Source: Flavobacterium sp. WC2421
Lineage (GTDB): Bacteria; Bacteroidota; Bacteroidia; Flavobacteriales; Flavobacteriaceae
Assembly (NCBI RefSeq): GCF_040822115.1
Contig: NZ_CP162004.1
Location: 3,457,001-3,521,000 of the forward strand
Length of the DNA: 64,000 nucleotides
Reading direction: 5' to 3'
The translations under genes were made by a program, and so were the position numbers. Below the pieces are notes generated by a model, which had not been told where the DNA came from, made no database searches, and worked only from the letters and a program-made list of their open reading frames with translations. Shown here piece by piece: positions 20,911 through 26,972 of the stretch (the stretch's first letter is position 1; every line of letters starts with the position of its first letter).

Positions 20911-20996
20911 TTAGGGCGTGCCCCTACGGGTCGGGCTTTACGTTACAATCTCCCGTAAAAACGGGAGGATTTCCACTGCAATCCCTCACGCAAATC
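20911..20996. repeat. Dispersed flavobacterial repeat element, copy 2
   Basis: GC-rich element starting TTAGGGCGTGCCCCTACGGG, with GGTCGGGCTTTACG inside and ending TTTCCACTGCAATCCCTCAC. The centre forms the hairpin CTCCCGT-AAAA-ACGGGAG. Both the left (GGTCGGGCT-T) and right (CTGC-ATCCCT-ACGCAAA) parts match the element at 5918-6003, while the central hairpins differ. The same design, conserved ends with a variable central hairpin, is what I recall of abundant intergenic repeats in Flavobacterium. Confidence 0.75.
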
Positions 20997-21001
20997 CAAC
21001 T

Positions 21002-21289
21002 ATGATCACACACACTCAAATCACCGATACCGAGCTCAAAGTCAAAATCAAGAACCAAGAAATTGCCTTTGGCGGCAACCTCAAACTCCACATTTATGGA
21101 ACCCTACATTGCAAATCCGGTAAACGAATGAAAAGAGAAAATCGCGTGTTTTTTTCCTCCGAAGATGAAGCAATCCAAAACAATTTCCGACCTTGTGGTC
21201 ATTGTATGAAAACCCAATATAAGCAATGGATTTATTCAACCCAGAACCAGACCAAAACACAAACCTATTGCCCAAAGACGGCACCGTAA
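21002..21289 (+). CDS. Ada-type metal-binding domain small protein
   Basis: A 95-residue protein starting MITHTQITDTELKVKIKNQE. An ATG-less extension upstream (from 20918) reads through the repeat and is unlikely to be used. The centre LKLHIYGTLHCKSGKRMKRE then RVFFSSEDEAIQNNFRPCGH ending CGHC resembles the zinc/phosphotriester-repair domain of Ada, in which two Cys pairs hold zinc. Here I can see CGHC and one further Cys in LHCKSG, so the ligand set is reduced or altered. The last 21 codons overlap alkB in another frame (64 bp). It could complement the downstream-truncated Ada protein at 20029 (inference). Confidence 0.7.
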   Translation: MITHTQITDTELKVKIKNQEIAFGGNLKLHIYGTLHCKSGKRMKRENRVFFSSEDEAIQNNFRPCGHCMKTQYKQWIYSTQNQTKTQTYCPKTAP

Positions 21290-21840: not shown

Positions 21841-22005
21841 ATTAATTCCTAAATATCACTAAATGTGGGTATAGGATTATTAATTTATAATTAAGTTATT
21901 TACTACAAAGTAAATTAACAGCAATACCATTGTATTGAAAAGGCAATAGAAGTTGATGTTATATACAAGTTAGTGGTCAGCTTAAAAAACGAAAAGCGAA
22001 AAATT

Positions 22006-22548
22006 ATGATGCATAAAATTGAAATTCCATCCAGCAAAATTAAACTTATTTTAATGTTGATTGGAACATCTGTTTTTATTGTAGGTAGTTATTATCTTTT
22101 TCAATATCCAGAACGGTTTATTTCTTATAGATTCAGAAGCGTTGAATTTATAAAAACAATAGGATTGCTTCTGCTTGTTTTTTGTAGCACTGCTTGGGTT
22201 TATATTCCAATAAAATTATTTGACAAAAAGCCAGGATTAATTCTTGATGAAGACGGAATTTATGATAATTCTAGTGCCGTAAGTGTTGGATTGATATTAT
22301 GGAAAGACATTGAATCAATTCGGGTCGAAAAAATAAATTCGACAAAAATGCTAATAGTAAATATCTATAATCCCGAAAAATATATTGACCGCTCAAATAG
22401 ATTTAAAAAAGTGCTTCTAAATTTAAATACTAAATTATATGGAACACCATTAACCATTGGGTTGGCAGGTTTAAAATATAACCGCGAAAGGCTCGAAAAA
22501 TTAATTATTCTAAATTATGAACTTTACAAAGAAAAGCCGAACCACTAA
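22006..22548 (+). CDS. STM3941-like membrane protein (cassette 1)
   Basis: A 180-residue protein beginning MMHKIEIPSSKIKLILMLIG. A GTG at 21973 could start a longer form but lies at the cassette edge, so I chose ATG 22006 (22009 is equally possible). Two membrane segments are visible (about 14-33 and 50-70), followed by a cytosolic part with GLILDEDGIYDNSS, LILWKDIESIRVEK and a C-terminal ERLEKLIILNYELY. This pattern matches what I recall as the STM3941 family, common in Bacteroidota and without known function. The stop codon is inside the left arm of the attC-like site. It is the first gene of the cassette array. Confidence 0.7.
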   Translation: MMHKIEIPSSKIKLILMLIGTSVFIVGSYYLFQYPERFISYRFRSVEFIKTIGLLLLVFCSTAWVYIPIKLFDKKPGLILDEDGIYDNSSAVSVGLILWKDIESIRVEKINSTKMLIVNIYNPEKYIDRSNRFKKVLLNLNTKLYGTPLTIGLAGLKYNRERLEKLIILNYELYKEKPNH

Positions 22549-22666
22549 CAGCCATTTTGAGCTAGCTGGAATTTAGTGGAATTGTCGTTTCACATCAAGT
22601 TTTCGTTAAGCCGAAAATTGAGCGGTTACGAACTTCCAGCCATCTCAAAGTGGCATAACGTTAGCT
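22543..22666 (+). repeat. attC-like recombination site 1
   Basis: 124 bp. Outer ends CACTAAC and GTTAGCT carry the invariant AAC/GTT of integron attC sites. The inner arms GCCATTTTGAG and CTCAAAGTGGC, then GCTGGAA and TTCCAGC, are complementary with small offsets that would leave unpaired bases in the folded strand, as attC sites do. The top of the stem holds the perfect hairpin TTTTCG-TTAAGC-CGAAAA. The site differs from site 2 at only about 11 positions by hand alignment. Confidence 0.8.
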
Positions 22667-22712
22667 GAAATATTAGAAAAAACGGAGAATTCAATAAAAA
22701 TTAAATATAATT

Positions 22713-23741
22713 ATGCCAGAAAGTCTTTTATCTATTCAAAATTCATTTGGAAGTAATTCATTCAAAAACCTAGCTGATTCACTTAGAAAATCGAATGAAA
22801 TAAACTTAAGTCTTTCAGGACTCGGCGGAATTACAGATATAGCGAAATCGGTAGCTATACAAATGAAAACAAGTAGCGAATTTACTAACTCCATTACTAC
22901 AATTGGTAAGACATTGAGTTCTCAATTCGTTAATCTAAATATCCCGAAAAATAATTTCGCGCTATATGGATTATCTTCTCATATCGCAGAAATTTCAAAA
23001 AATAGTCAGTTGATAGGACAAAGTTTCTCAAATTTAGCATCAAGCCAAATATTGCTTTCAAATAGTTTATTAGAAATTTCAAAAACACTTTCAAAATCAC
23101 ATTTAAATCAATTTAACAGCCTAAATGTTGCGTTACAGGGATTGTCAAAATCTTTTCTACAAGAAATCGTAAGAAATAGAGATTGGGAAGATTTTGACTT
23201 TATTAAAGAAACTAATGAAACAATTTCTATAACCACAAATGATTTTGTTAGTAGTCATAGTGAAGTAACAATTCAAGATTTAGAAAATTTAAAATTGTCA
23301 ATTGTTGAAAATTTATCAACATTATTAAGCAAAACAAATTCTGAAAAGAACAGAACATTTTTGTTTGATTTGATGGCTGTTATTAGTTTTATACTTAGCT
23401 TGTATGGAACATATGGTACATATCAATCATCTATTGATAAAAATAATAAAGAAACTTATTTGGAAGTTAAAAAAGATATGGACACTTTCAAAAAAGAATT
23501 ATATGCTAAAATAGATGAGAAATTTAATAACAAACATAAATCTAAAATTGCAAAGACTAAACTTAATCTAAAATATTCCACTAAAAAAAATAGTAAAATT
23601 ATTGGAATAATAAACATCGGTCAGAAAGTAACAGTAATTGAAATTAGACATAAATATTTTTTAATCACATATCTTGATAAAGAGACTCAAGAACCAAAAT
23701 CAGGTTTTGTTTTGAAAAAATATTTTGAAACTGAAAAATAA
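22713..23741 (+). CDS. Membrane protein with C-terminal SH3-like domain (cassette 2)
   Basis: A 342-residue protein with no close family that I recognise. Residues 1-160 are rich in Ser, Asn and Leu with repeated hydrophobic spacing (SLSGLGG, ALYGLSSHIAEISK, SNLASSQILLSNSLLEISKT), suggesting long amphipathic helices. One membrane segment is visible at about 215-233 (FLFDLMAVISFILSLYG), followed by a charged helix (ETYLEVKKDMDTFKKELYAK, about 250-270). The end, about 280-340, resembles a bacterial SH3 domain: KLNLKYSTKKNSKIIGIIN and IGQKVTVIEIRHKYFLITYL. It stands alone between attC-like sites 1 and 2. No function is proposed beyond membrane anchoring. Confidence 0.75.
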   Translation: MPESLLSIQNSFGSNSFKNLADSLRKSNEINLSLSGLGGITDIAKSVAIQMKTSSEFTNSITTIGKTLSSQFVNLNIPKNNFALYGLSSHIAEISKNSQLIGQSFSNLASSQILLSNSLLEISKTLSKSHLNQFNSLNVALQGLSKSFLQEIVRNRDWEDFDFIKETNETISITTNDFVSSHSEVTIQDLENLKLSIVENLSTLLSKTNSEKNRTFLFDLMAVISFILSLYGTYGTYQSSIDKNNKETYLEVKKDMDTFKKELYAKIDEKFNNKHKSKIAKTKLNLKYSTKKNSKIIGIINIGQKVTVIEIRHKYFLITYLDKETQEPKSGFVLKKYFETEK

Positions 23742-23748
23742 ATACTTC

Positions 23749-23872
23749 AGCTAACAGCCATTTTGATATAGCTGGAATTTAGTGGAATTATCGTTCCGCA
23801 TCAAGTTTTCGTTAAGCCGAAAATTGAGCGGTTACGAACTTCCAGCCATCTCAAAGTGGCAAAACGTTGGGC
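23749..23872 (+). repeat. attC-like recombination site 2
   Basis: 124 bp, ends AGCTAAC and GTTGGGC; the right end fits the attC consensus GTTRRRY exactly. The inner palindrome is the same as in site 1 (GCCATTTTGA with TCAAAGTGGC, GCTGGAA with TTCCAGC, top hairpin TTTTCG-TTAAGC-CGAAAA). The near-identity of sites 1 and 2 around unrelated genes is a hallmark of cassette arrays built from one source. Confidence 0.82.
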
Positions 23873-23898
23873 GACATTATAAAAAACAGAACAAAAAT

Positions 23899-25887
23899 AT
23901 GGCTATAGGAATACATCGATCAGTTAATTTGGATAAAGCTTTTTTTAATCAAGCTGAAAAAGAAATTATTCAAAATTTCGGATTACTATTTGAAATAACA
24001 TTTGCTAAAACACATGTTTTTAAAGGCATATCATATAATTATGTATTCCTTAAACCAACTGATTCATTAAGAGAACAATTTAGATTTCAAAATGAAATAT
24101 TATTATTAATAACTAATCATCATGATTTTGATAATCGAACTTTTGATTATGTTGATAAATTAATGTCAGACTATCAAAATAGACTTGATAAATTATGTCT
24201 AATTTTAATAAGTAAAGACAATAATATTAAAAAGAAAGTAAATTCTTTAATTCAACAAAATCCAGATTCAAGAATAATAATTCCTTTCAATTACTTGGAT
24301 TTCTACAAAAACTTGCCAGAACAAATAATAAATCAACGTCTTAAAGAATATTTCTATGGCAGAGATTTATTTGCATTTGAATCACCTTTACAAAATGATG
24401 CATATTTTTATGGTAGAACAGCGACTGTCCAATTCTTTTATGACAAATATAAATCAGGAGAAAATAGCGGTTTATTTGGATTAAGAAAAATTGGAAAAAC
24501 ATCTGTACTATATGCATTAAATAGATATTTAAATTTACGAAATGAAAACACTGTTTTTATTGATTGTCAAGAACCTTCTTTTCATTTAAGAAGATGGTAC
24601 GAGTGTTTAGAATATTTGATAAATGAACTAGTCCAACAAATCCAAGAAAGAAATGATATTATTTTAGATATTGAATTTAATAAAAACTATAATGAAAAGG
24701 ATGCCTCAAAATATTTTGAAGAAGATTTAAAAAAAATATTTAATCATCAAAATAATCAGAGAATATTAATAATTTTTGATGAAATTGAAAACATAACATT
24801 TGAAATATCTCCAACAAAACATTGGAGAGAGGAAAATGATTTTCTTTACTTTTGGCAATCACTTCGAGCAATTTATCAAAAAAATCAAACTTTATTTTCT
24901 TTTGTTATTGCAGGAGTAAATCCTAAAACAATTGAAACAGGTACCGTTAACGGACATGACAATCCTATTTACAGAATGATTACACCAAATTATTTAAAAC
25001 TATTCAATCATAATGATGTTGAAGAAATGGTTAAGAATATTGGTAACTATATGGGATTAGATTTTGATAAAGAAATATTTACTTTCTTAACTGATGATTT
25101 TGGAGGACATCCTTTTTTAATTAGACAACTTTGTTCAAAAATTCATCAATCCCTTTCTAAACAAAGACCTTTGAAAGTAACAAAATTATACTACAAGGAG
25201 AAAATTCAAGATTTTAATAAAGGCCTAATTGACTATGTAGAAGTAATTGTTGATGTTCTAAAAAAATGGTATCCGAACGAATATGAACTTTTAGAGGCGC
25301 TAGTTCTTGATAACAGAGAAAAATTTGAAGAAATAACTAGTTTTTCTGAACAACCAATCATTCACTTATTAGGCTATAACTTAATTGAAAAATCAGACAC
25401 TAATAAATATCACATCAAAATTAATGCAGTAAGAGATTATGTGATTGAAAAATCTATAAATAAAAGAAAAATAGTTACCGTTGAAGATAAATGGGAACTT
25501 GTAACAAATAGAAGAAATCAACTTGAATTAAAAATCAGAGAAATAATTAAGTTGAATATTAAATCAAAATTTGGTGCTAAAGCTAAAGACCATTTCTTAA
25601 AGTGTATTGAAGAAAGAAGAAGAGAAAAATTAAATCAATTAAATTTAAATGATATTTTTTCAGATAAAGGAGAAATTTATTTATTAGACTTAAAAGTCTA
25701 CATAACAAAAAATTGGAGTGATTTTGAGAATATATATTTGGATAAACCAAAATTTGAAATGTATTTAGATATTGTAAATACAAATAGAATTGATGCACAT
25801 GCAAAAGATTTAAATAATGAAGATTTAACCATAACAATTAGTGCTTTGAATTGGCTCAATGATAAATCTGACAAATATTTGGAATAA
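23899..25887 (+). CDS. P-loop (nSTAND-like) ATPase with possible HEPN-like C-terminus (cassette 3)
   Basis: A 662-residue protein. ATG 23899 was chosen; the frame is open for 39 codons upstream, but those codons read through attC site 2. Residues about 1-160 form an unrecognised N-terminal domain. The linker RDLFAFESPLQNDAYFYGR leads into an ATPase with Walker A GLRKIGKTS (194-202) and Walker B ILIIFDE (Asp294, Glu295), then GGHPFLIRQLC, a helical sensor and a winged-helix-like part. This is the STAND-like AAA pattern. The final 75 residues (WSDFENIYLDKPKFEMYLDI then NRIDAHAKDL) resemble Swt1-type HEPN domains, with Arg630 and His634; the spacing Rx3H is shorter than the usual Rx4-6H. An abortive-infection role is plausible but unproven. 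Confidence 0.7.
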   Translation: MAIGIHRSVNLDKAFFNQAEKEIIQNFGLLFEITFAKTHVFKGISYNYVFLKPTDSLREQFRFQNEILLLITNHHDFDNRTFDYVDKLMSDYQNRLDKLCLILISKDNNIKKKVNSLIQQNPDSRIIIPFNYLDFYKNLPEQIINQRLKEYFYGRDLFAFESPLQNDAYFYGRTATVQFFYDKYKSGENSGLFGLRKIGKTSVLYALNRYLNLRNENTVFIDCQEPSFHLRRWYECLEYLINELVQQIQERNDIILDIEFNKNYNEKDASKYFEEDLKKIFNHQNNQRILIIFDEIENITFEISPTKHWREENDFLYFWQSLRAIYQKNQTLFSFVIAGVNPKTIETGTVNGHDNPIYRMITPNYLKLFNHNDVEEMVKNIGNYMGLDFDKEIFTFLTDDFGGHPFLIRQLCSKIHQSLSKQRPLKVTKLYYKEKIQDFNKGLIDYVEVIVDVLKKWYPNEYELLEALVLDNREKFEEITSFSEQPIIHLLGYNLIEKSDTNKYHIKINAVRDYVIEKSINKRKIVTVEDKWELVTNRRNQLELKIREIIKLNIKSKFGAKAKDHFLKCIEERRREKLNQLNLNDIFSDKGEIYLLDLKVYITKNWSDFENIYLDKPKFEMYLDIVNTNRIDAHAKDLNNEDLTITISALNWLNDKSDKYLE

Positions 25888-25895
25888 TAACGATC

Positions 25896-26017
25896 GCCCA
25901 ACACACGTCTTGCGCCATTTGCGAATTTAGTGGAATTCGTTTCGCATCACCTTTGCTGCAAAGGAGAAAGTTGAAAGATTACGAATTCCCAACCATCTCA
26001 AAGGCAACACGTTAGCG
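25896..26017 (+). repeat. attC-like recombination site 3
   Basis: 122 bp. The left end GCCCAAC fits RYYYAAC exactly; the right end is GTTAGCG. The right half keeps the CCATCTCAAAG block of sites 1 and 2 and the TTTAGTGGAATT block is shared on the left, but the top hairpin is different (CCTTTG-CTG-CAAAGG). It therefore belongs to the same broad type but is a distinct site, as expected if cassette 3 came from another source or diverged. Confidence 0.78.
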
Positions 26018-26053
26018 GTTATATTACAGCAGAACTTTAAAAAACAACATTTT

Positions 26054-26905
26054 ATGAAATATATTTTAATCCTTTTTACATTTTTTTCAATTACTTTAAA
26101 TGCTCAAAATATTTTAAAGTTTGACAAAACAAACGTTCAATGTGAAGATAAGTGGATTGCATACCAAATGGAAAAAGATAGTACTTATACATTAGGATTT
26201 ATTTATATCGATTCACAAGCAGGATTAACCTTAAACTATGAGGGAAAATTTAAAATTGAAAAAGATGGTAAATTTATTAGAATAGATAATGAAACTAAAA
26301 ATGAAGTAGGTTTTATAAAAGCAAGGCTTCAACCAAACAGAACTGCAATAGCTGAAATTCCTGAAGCAAAATTTAAAGAACTAAATATTGAAAAAACACC
26401 TAATTGGTTAAAAACATATAAAACTGATGAAAATTCTGTTGAAAGATTATATCGTTGGGGTTATATGTATAATGGCTGGAACGAATGCGAGAAGGCTTTA
26501 ACTTTTTTAGAAAAAGTAGATAAAATTAATCCGAAATTTAAAGGATTACAAACTGAATTAGCATTTTCTTATAATGCTTTACAGAAATTTGATAAGGCAG
26601 AAATATCATTAAAAAAAGCAATTATAGAAAATCCAGAAGACTGTTATACTTATAAAGAATTGGCTTATACTTATACAAAACTTTTGAATTTTGAAAAAGT
26701 AGCAGAAACTTATTTAACAATGTCTAAAATATGTAAGGAACAAAATTTCATTCAAGAAACTGCATATAATTTAGCATATGAATATTTTAAAACAAAAGAT
26801 GTAATTAAGTTTAATAAGTGGAAAAGTGAGGCTGAAAAATGGTCTAAATCCGAAAATCAGTACACACAAAACTTAAATAAAATGGAATCTGAATTAAATA
26901 AATAA
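26054..26905 (+). CDS. Secreted tetratricopeptide repeat protein (cassette 4)
   Basis: A 283-residue protein with a Sec signal peptide (MKYILILFTFFSITLNAQ, cleavage probably before QN). After a beta-rich N-terminal part (about 20-125; TLGFIYIDSQAGLTLNYEGK) there are tetratricopeptide-like repeats from about 130: YMYNGWNECEKALTFLEKVD, LAFSYNALQKFDKAEISLKK, and ELAYTYTKLLNFEKVAETYL. TPR units bind other proteins; the partner is unknown. It sits alone in the last cassette, 36 bp after attC-like site 3. Confidence 0.78.
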   Translation: MKYILILFTFFSITLNAQNILKFDKTNVQCEDKWIAYQMEKDSTYTLGFIYIDSQAGLTLNYEGKFKIEKDGKFIRIDNETKNEVGFIKARLQPNRTAIAEIPEAKFKELNIEKTPNWLKTYKTDENSVERLYRWGYMYNGWNECEKALTFLEKVDKINPKFKGLQTELAFSYNALQKFDKAEISLKKAIIENPEDCYTYKELAYTYTKLLNFEKVAETYLTMSKICKEQNFIQETAYNLAYEYFKTKDVIKFNKWKSEAEKWSKSENQYTQNLNKMESELNK

Positions 26906-26915
26906 AAAACACAAC

Positions 26916-26972
26916 CGCCAACAGCCCCTCCGCTACCGAATCCTTTCGTGTGGTACTTGTTTGGTAAAGCAC
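26916..26972 (+). repeat. Partial attC-like site closing the array
   Basis: Starts CGCCAAC, the near-complement of the cassette-4 start GTTAGCG, and continues with a weaker palindrome (GCTACCGAA against TTTGGTAAAGC). No GTT-type right end follows before ordinary intergenic sequence, so the site seems cut off or decayed. Confidence 0.55.

Follow-up and report, generated by a model that had tools for sequence, protein, structure and literature searches.

An attI-headed cassette array in Flavobacterium sp. WC2421 as the probable secondary platform of an integron-type system lacking the I2 helix

Sedentary chromosomal integrons couple a tyrosine recombinase of the IntI family (TIGR02249) with an attI site beside its gene and with arrays of circle-derived cassettes, which join at a GTT crossover through attC sites folding as hairpins with a stable bottom strand. 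Clusters of attC sites lacking integron-integrases (CALIN) consist of such arrays without an integrase in cis, while XerC, XerD and XerA act on dif sites and are not known to have cassettes. Integrons are on record for the Bacteroidota in the available parts of three sources (PMC8618304, PMC9668308, PMC2426708), and the accessible portion of the IntegronFinder 2.0 paper gives complete integrons of this phylum only for Salinibacter, Chlorobi and Ignavibacteriae (PMC9024848). The I2 helix of the integrase is held, in what is available of a further source, to have made single-strand cassette recombination possible (PMC7790495). Among the literature matches listed, with preprints and most subscription papers outside the coverage, none describes a chromosomal integron of an I2-less kind in Flavobacterium or other Bacteroidia. 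The subject here is a window, that is, the whole analysed stretch of 64,000 nucleotides (nt) of the Flavobacterium sp. WC2421 chromosome (GCF_040822115.1, NZ_CP162004.1, positions 3,457,001-3,521,000, forward strand), which holds an array of four one-gene cassettes at 21969-26922. Judged from sequence, this array is very probably a secondary platform for the cassettes of a system of integron type, whose integrase lacks I2 and would serve scattered attI platforms in trans.

All of the above features of sedentary chromosomal integrons recur in WC2421, namely the tyrosine recombinase, the attI site beside its gene, circle-derived cassettes, the GTT crossover and hairpin attC sites with a stable bottom strand. 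Of the features that define an integron functionally, three are seen here: a recombinase gene with an adjacent attI, circle-derived cassettes, and a cassette content that differs between relatives at the attI GTT; the fourth, recombination of attI with attC by the integrase, is predicted. Unlike in sedentary chromosomal integrons with canonical IntI, the integrase has no I2 and carries an N-terminal extension, the array follows the integrase gene and runs in its direction, the 15-nt R arms of the attC sites have a fixed mismatch at position 11, T.G at L5 and A.C at L14 replace the bulges, and one genome holds several orphan attI platforms. With XerC, XerD and XerA the integrase shares the core fold and the lack of I2, but these proteins are set apart in trees from IntI and the present family. 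The original prediction had set the window array beside CALINs. It does have no integrase in cis; it starts, however, at an attI-like site and is therefore not a plain CALIN, a matching integrase is encoded elsewhere in the genome, and its attC sites are of another, unusual kind, with fixed mismatches, 15-nt R arms and no need of a bulged base.

The array is headed by an attI module (21849-21971, plus strand), whose core TTGATGTTATATACAAGTT (21953-21971) ends in the GTT at which cassettes join. Each of the four cassettes, all on the plus strand, holds one long plus-strand open reading frame (ORF) and has complementary ends. Cassette 1 (21969-22549; ORF 21973-22548, 191 amino acids (aa), STM3941 family, NF041635, 7.4e-38) starts with GTTAGTGGTCAGCTT and has the reverse-complemented end GTTAGTGGTTCGGCT, which pair at nine positions in a row and at 11 of 15 in total, with 10 and 11 (A.G) unpaired. 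The ends of cassette 2 (22660-23755; ORF 22713-23741, 342 aa, no Pfam family above cut-off except a marginal Pox_D5 with 23.1 bits against a cut-off of 21.4), GTTAGCTGAAATATT and, reverse-complemented, GTTAGCTGAAGTATT, pair at 14 of 15 positions, the sole mismatch being A.C at position 11. Cassette 3 (23866-25902; ORF about 23899-25887, 662 aa, AAA ATPase, PF13401, 4.9e-7) again pairs at nine positions in a row between GTTGGGCGACATTAT and the reverse complement GTTGGGCGATCGTTA of its end, leaving 10 and 11 (A.G) unpaired, while cassette 4 (26011-26922; ORF 26054-26905, 283 aa, TPR protein, PF00515 at its cut-off) pairs at 12 of 15 between GTTAGCGGTTATATT and the reverse-complemented GTTGGCGGTTGTGTT, with a break at position 4 and an unpaired A.C at 11. 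The predicted series of four plus-strand one-gene units with start-to-end complementarity was thus confirmed over at least the first nine positions, save for the break in cassette 4; that position 11 is unpaired in all four had gone unremarked.

The palindromic sites predicted between the units are also present, as three complete plus-strand attC sites and a terminal half-site. A family covariance model (R1), built here as a substitute for the proposed search with an existing attC model, matches the three complete sites in the 64-kb window, the next matches having E 3.2. Site 1 (22543-22663) scores 106.0 bits and site 2 (23749-23869), itself one of the 30 training sites, 106.6 bits; both fold far more stably than shuffled sequences (z -4.1 and -5.6 on the plus strand, -5.0 and -6.5 on the minus strand). 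The more degenerate site 3 (25896-26014) scores 34.7 bits (E 9e-6) and hardly exceeds shuffles (z -1.1 and -1.8). The fourth attC (26920-26972, plus strand), at the array end, comprises only the R'' and L'' side, without L' and its GTT, and is not matched by the family model. An Rfam search of the array returned no attC family and only chance matches, besides a Flavo-1 RNA (RF01705, 56.6 bits, above the gathering score) on the minus strand at 20925-21005, in the gap separating two genes that precede the array.

The window attI core is identical at 19 of 19 nt to a site 3' of an integrase gene in the same genome, where TTGATGTTATATACAAGTT stands 28 nt after the stop codon and is followed by a cassette. 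This gene (G000:C1:2617878-2619629, G000 being the WC2421 genome), which lies 0.86 Mb from the window array and has its own array and attI alongside, encodes 584 aa and is the unusual integrase that had been suspected elsewhere in the genome. A TIGR02249 search of the genome yields one outstanding recombinase, at 2.618 Mb, in two pieces of 120 and 102 bits; the whole protein scores 216.2 bits, below the curated cut-off of 265, and no match above this cut-off occurs anywhere in the genome. The closest PDB match is IntI4 (2a3v, 1e-37), with an alignment gap exactly at the position of I2, and both alignment and spacing indicate that no I2 insert is present between the K and H patches. The K-to-H spacing is 60 aa; among 20 distant N-extended integrases, 18 have 59-62 and two could not be measured. 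Of 29 canonical IntI rows of the same phylum, 23 have 101, five give 103 or 131 because the motif hit a site further ahead, and one could not be measured. The spacing is 67 in one Xer-like protein of WC2421, a second not being measurable; OwnY_L160 and L161 hold no usable motif. The core is highly conserved, and R430, H520, R523, H546 and Y555, which we take to be the catalytic residues, are invariant in 18 of 18 aligned integrases. The N-terminal extension of about 290 aa comprises three beta-beta-alpha-beta-beta-alpha repeats; its similarity to the DRD of archaeal XPB or the HARP domain of SMARCAL1 appears not to be significant, with one of 17 extensions matching Pfam HARP at E 0.012 and none of ten distant ones, and a Foldseek search with an N-terminal structure model gave no match at E 0.001 or better.

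Integrase relatives are held by 21 named loci in Flavobacterium and other Flavobacteriaceae and Flavobacteriales, one of them (L050) cut by a contig edge and two (L064, L066) with interrupted integrase frames. Judged by eye, conservation after the stop codon ends at the GTT in all 20 of these loci with downstream sequence, beyond which the sequences diverge. Just upstream of the crossover at the attI sites behind integrase genes stands TATATTTG, a sequence similar to the -7 promoter element of Bacteroidota (TAnnTTTG); it may be a cassette promoter. A CACTAAATGTGGGTAT block, found in the window at 21849-21889 and in many Flavobacterium genomes, stands together with a module of about 110 nt ahead of several orphan attI sites, and also matches places without an attI match.

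Further platforms are scattered over the WC2421 chromosome, in which six attI-headed arrays were found. The attI pattern has two exact matches and three with two mismatches, and all five are followed on the same strand, 0.5-2.5 kb downstream, by a modelled attC; this holds for one of four matches with three mismatches (2763909, attC at 2765084), and a reversed control pattern gave two matches at up to three mismatches. The attC model matches at least 37 places genome-wide at E 0.1 or better (38 matches, one an opposite-strand echo), a count based on scoring 150 of 7386 first-look candidates with a model that draws nine of its 30 training sites from this genome. Clusters lie at 2.263-2.278, 2.599-2.617, 3.479-3.483 (the window) and 3.680-3.685 Mb, besides single and paired sites.

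Several side observations concern these arrays. One cassette ORF of the main array (L027 8962-9726), DNA methyltransferase-like by eye, opposes the array direction. At three attC sites (G000:C1 2614192, 2609936 and 2603887) the end of an insertion sequence (IS)-like element (GTCAGGCTGTG...), presumably IS1182-like, stands in place of the cassette start, and the same end occurs at one attC junction in L049 (18122), as if the element might target the attC crossover. One such end adjoins a transposase-like ORF of 512 aa (L027 6564-8102). Of a second, decayed integrase only the 3' end is left (L036 4700-6830; G000:C1 2483.7-2485.8 kb), and behind it come an attI-like site, a single cassette with A.C ends at position 11 and one attC; this remnant is read as a second integron, of the type with a short integrase, that has decayed.

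Cassettes of this family are mostly single genes with 15-bp terminal inverted repeats, the complementarity ending after position 15. Between consecutive sites of 27 loci, chosen by L-arm pairing, the ends of one cassette match at 5.9 of the seven positions 4-10, against 2.6 of seven for mispaired ends, and a match of at least six of seven was found in 35 of 42 real pairs versus 2.7% of 1722 control pairs, in keeping with the original contention that the complementarity goes beyond ordinary repeats. Strict pairs were then picked by the GTT and positions 4-9 and 12-15 only, leaving position 11 unused. All 91 such pairs have a mismatch at position 11 (20/20 in WC2421, 41/41 in the named loci and 30/30 in distant loci, the last from 14 of 20 loci), and 89 of them have A at the start and C at the end, read in the array direction. 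Since a chance pair would be mismatched three times in four, the weight rests on the 91 of 91 together with the identity of this one base. Markov shuffles of the three sets gave 0.6, 1.8 and 1.0 strict pairs. Eight canonical loci yielded two strict pairs, and in each of them position 11 is paired; this control is thin because only L151 and L152 show clear cassette chains. In WC2421, 21 cassettes, 20 of them the strict pairs, match at all of positions 4-9 and 12-15. Fixing no more than positions 4-8 made an alternative chain search too loose, with chains in shuffles as well, and the strict test took its place.

The hairpins were evaluated on sites selected without regard to L pairing. The 88 R-chain sites include false ones (92 chained pairs in real sequence versus 10 in shuffles); 53 sites were kept by arm match (three of four at positions 12-15) and site length, and 30 of these, chosen by R arms and length, make up the covariation alignment (A4), in which two visibly misaligned rows (L051:15645 and L066:12601) were retained. 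The 18 L-arm pairs are paired in 92.8% of cases versus 59.1% when shuffled, with a covariation of 0.724 against 0.168 (reached by none of 500 shuffles; slid registers at most 0.117) and changes on both sides in 17 of 18 pairs (shuffles mean 14.0, with 8/500 reaching 17). Among the 53 sites L5 is T.G in 43, L14 is A.C in 40 and R11 is paired in none. All 53 pair in one ungapped register without bulged (extrahelical) L-arm bases; a canonical attC with bulged bases was rejected, a single register with fixed mismatches fitting better. By DNA energies the bottom strand is the more stable in 52 of 53 sites (mean -30.8 versus -26.5), against 17 of 53 when shuffled. At about 120 nt, palindromic, with AAC/GTT ends and a favoured bottom strand, the hairpins conform to the general description of canonical attC sites. 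The A.C at R11 becomes a T.G wobble on the bottom strand, where the R arm therefore closes, and this wobble is likely the source of the strand bias.

Among 395 sampled genomes of the phylum, 40 match a profile of the N-terminal extension (A2), and 24 of these belong to the class of WC2421. Most of the matches are confined to the first 50-95 residues, and the weaker ones go up to 6e-4; those proteins that were examined have 345-582 aa. At 14 of 20 distant places a GTT and a cassette-like start follow within 150 nt of the stop codon, as judged by eye, one of these (L098) being without array evidence. Of 19 distant loci searched with the attC model, 17 have matches, oriented as the integrase is, besides one echo that overlaps on the opposite strand; the model gave one weak match in eight canonical loci, and none in four control loci or in the array of genome G172. 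Canonical IntI above the cut-off occurs in 105 of the 395 genomes, and the class of WC2421 contributes only one of these. Seven genomes (G001, G016, G048, G098, G157, G284 and G303) combine such an IntI with an N-terminal-profile match, putatively two integron kinds in one cell. Within the genus, the attI pattern (at most one mismatch) occurs in 17 of 249 genomes with 27 matches, against one for the reversed control. Of the 25 matches outside WC2421 (two of them cut by the locus edge), 15 are followed on their own strand by a modelled attC no more than 1.5 kb away and ten are not, compared with none of eight flank loci, and 13 of the 16 other attI-bearing genomes match the N-terminal profile, six strongly.

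Comparison with four close relatives of the window flanks (G440, G532, G503 and G537) places the breakpoints at the GTT, where the original prediction had looked for them. In G440, the orthologous place holds a related attI module, identical at 95 of 143 positions and, among the final 18 as far as the GTT, at 17, after which a different sequence follows with an ORF of about 400 aa, caspase-like by eye and visible only to the contig edge. G532 and G503, both of which encode the integrase, have neither array nor attI; the segment 21842-27185 is missing and the flanking genes stand 67-68 nt apart. Neither attI nor the downstream flank gene is in view in G537. Cassette content at the attI GTT thus differs between relatives, as in integrons. 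Neither of the two conditions named at the outset as refuting the original interpretation, each examined in a substitute form, applied, and its view that an integron system works or worked in this lineage is supported.

The phylogenetic position of the I2-less integrases was examined in trees of 15 of 29 IntI rows, the WC2421 row, nine further rows from Flavobacterium and 18 rows of the distant 20, with only three long-branched Xer rows as the outgroup; L099 and L103 were masked or cut, and four more own rows are absent from the later trees. IntI and the I2-less integrases group together against Xer (94/100 in the first tree, 100/100 in two later ones), and IntI forms one clade (96/100, later 100/100). 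The I2-less rows form one clade in 0 of 200 bootstrap trees, yet approximately unbiased (AU) tests do not reject such a clade (p 0.46 and 0.35), and a proven paraphyletic grade is accordingly not claimed. Next to IntI in the tree (94/79) stands the integrase of G172 (L219), which has 312 aa, neither I2 nor N-terminal extension, and an array downstream whose strict pairs are mismatch-marked in four of four cases. That the extension reads the mismatch is therefore no more than a weak idea, since the mismatch persists in G172 where the extension is missing. As Xer, a thinly sampled outgroup, has no I2, fewer changes are required if IntI gained it than if it was lost. Evenly poised between acceptance and doubt is the wider proposal of an older-type integron lineage, in which integrases that never had I2 recombine folded single strands, fixed mismatches act as strand and polarity marks, a single integrase works several attI platforms of its genome in trans, and the same stock gave rise to canonical, I2-bearing IntI.

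Other explanations of the window array were weighed against that of a secondary platform. An ordinary CALIN, with canonical attC sites imported or left over from an I2-bearing IntI integron, would account for the GTT/AAC cores, the cassette structure and the hairpins with a stabler bottom strand, and canonical IntI is present in 105 of 395 genomes of the phylum; it is nevertheless highly improbable, given that WC2421 has no match above the TIGR02249 cut-off, that the linked integrase lacks I2, that one of 105 canonical carriers belongs to the same class, and that the canonical loci gave two of two strict pairs paired at position 11 and one weak match of the family model. Chance complementarity among dispersed repeats between unrelated genes, akin to repetitive extragenic palindromes or miniature inverted-repeat transposable elements, deserves almost no credence. 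Sites 1 and 2 are indeed 90% identical across 136 nt, with about 20 similar stretches in the genome; the explanation is contradicted, however, by complementarity that joins the ends of the same cassette (5.9 versus 2.6 of seven) and by the change of the gene, not of the attI, at the GTT, and the stems covary besides.

Unlikely, though to be taken more seriously, is a recombination of double strands in the manner of Xer, with the palindromes serving as recognition arms and not as folded single strands. The core of the enzyme resembles Xer and XerA, and it is I2, absent here, that is held to confer single-strand recombination in the accessible part of PMC7790495. A fixed double-stranded recognition sequence would, however, have no need of L arms that covary (0.724 versus 0.168). 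The bottom-strand bias in 52 of 53 sites and the several tens of nucleotides of loop between the two L arms also speak against it. A similarly low probability attaches to a dead relic, with array and attI sites as fossils and the integrase now otherwise employed. The incomplete last and degenerate third attC of the window, the insertion-sequence ends at attC junctions of the main array, the integrase remnant at 2483.7 kb and the interrupted frames in L064 and L066 all speak of decay; the 584-aa integrase is nevertheless intact, with catalytic residues invariant in 18 of 18, 21 cassettes of the genome retain the full match at positions 4-9 and 12-15, and the sequence after attI varies among the 20 integrase-linked loci (by eye) and at the orthologous orphan attI.

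In the preferred reading of the window array as a secondary platform of an I2-less integron-type system, the integrase would excise and insert cassettes as circles, through a recombination at G/TT between attC, as a folded bottom strand, and attI, as double-stranded DNA. The non-Watson-Crick pairs at R11, L5 and L14 would take the place of bulged bases and the I2 helix in the choice of strand and orientation, and orphan attI sites such as that of the window would be served in trans by the distant integrase. A natural integron system without I2 would make the role of this helix, and the origin of integrons, directly testable. If the reading is true, the system has a simple sequence signature in 15-nt cassette ends with A.C at position 11, and cassette exchange would be far wider in the Flavobacteriaceae and their kin than surveys indicate.

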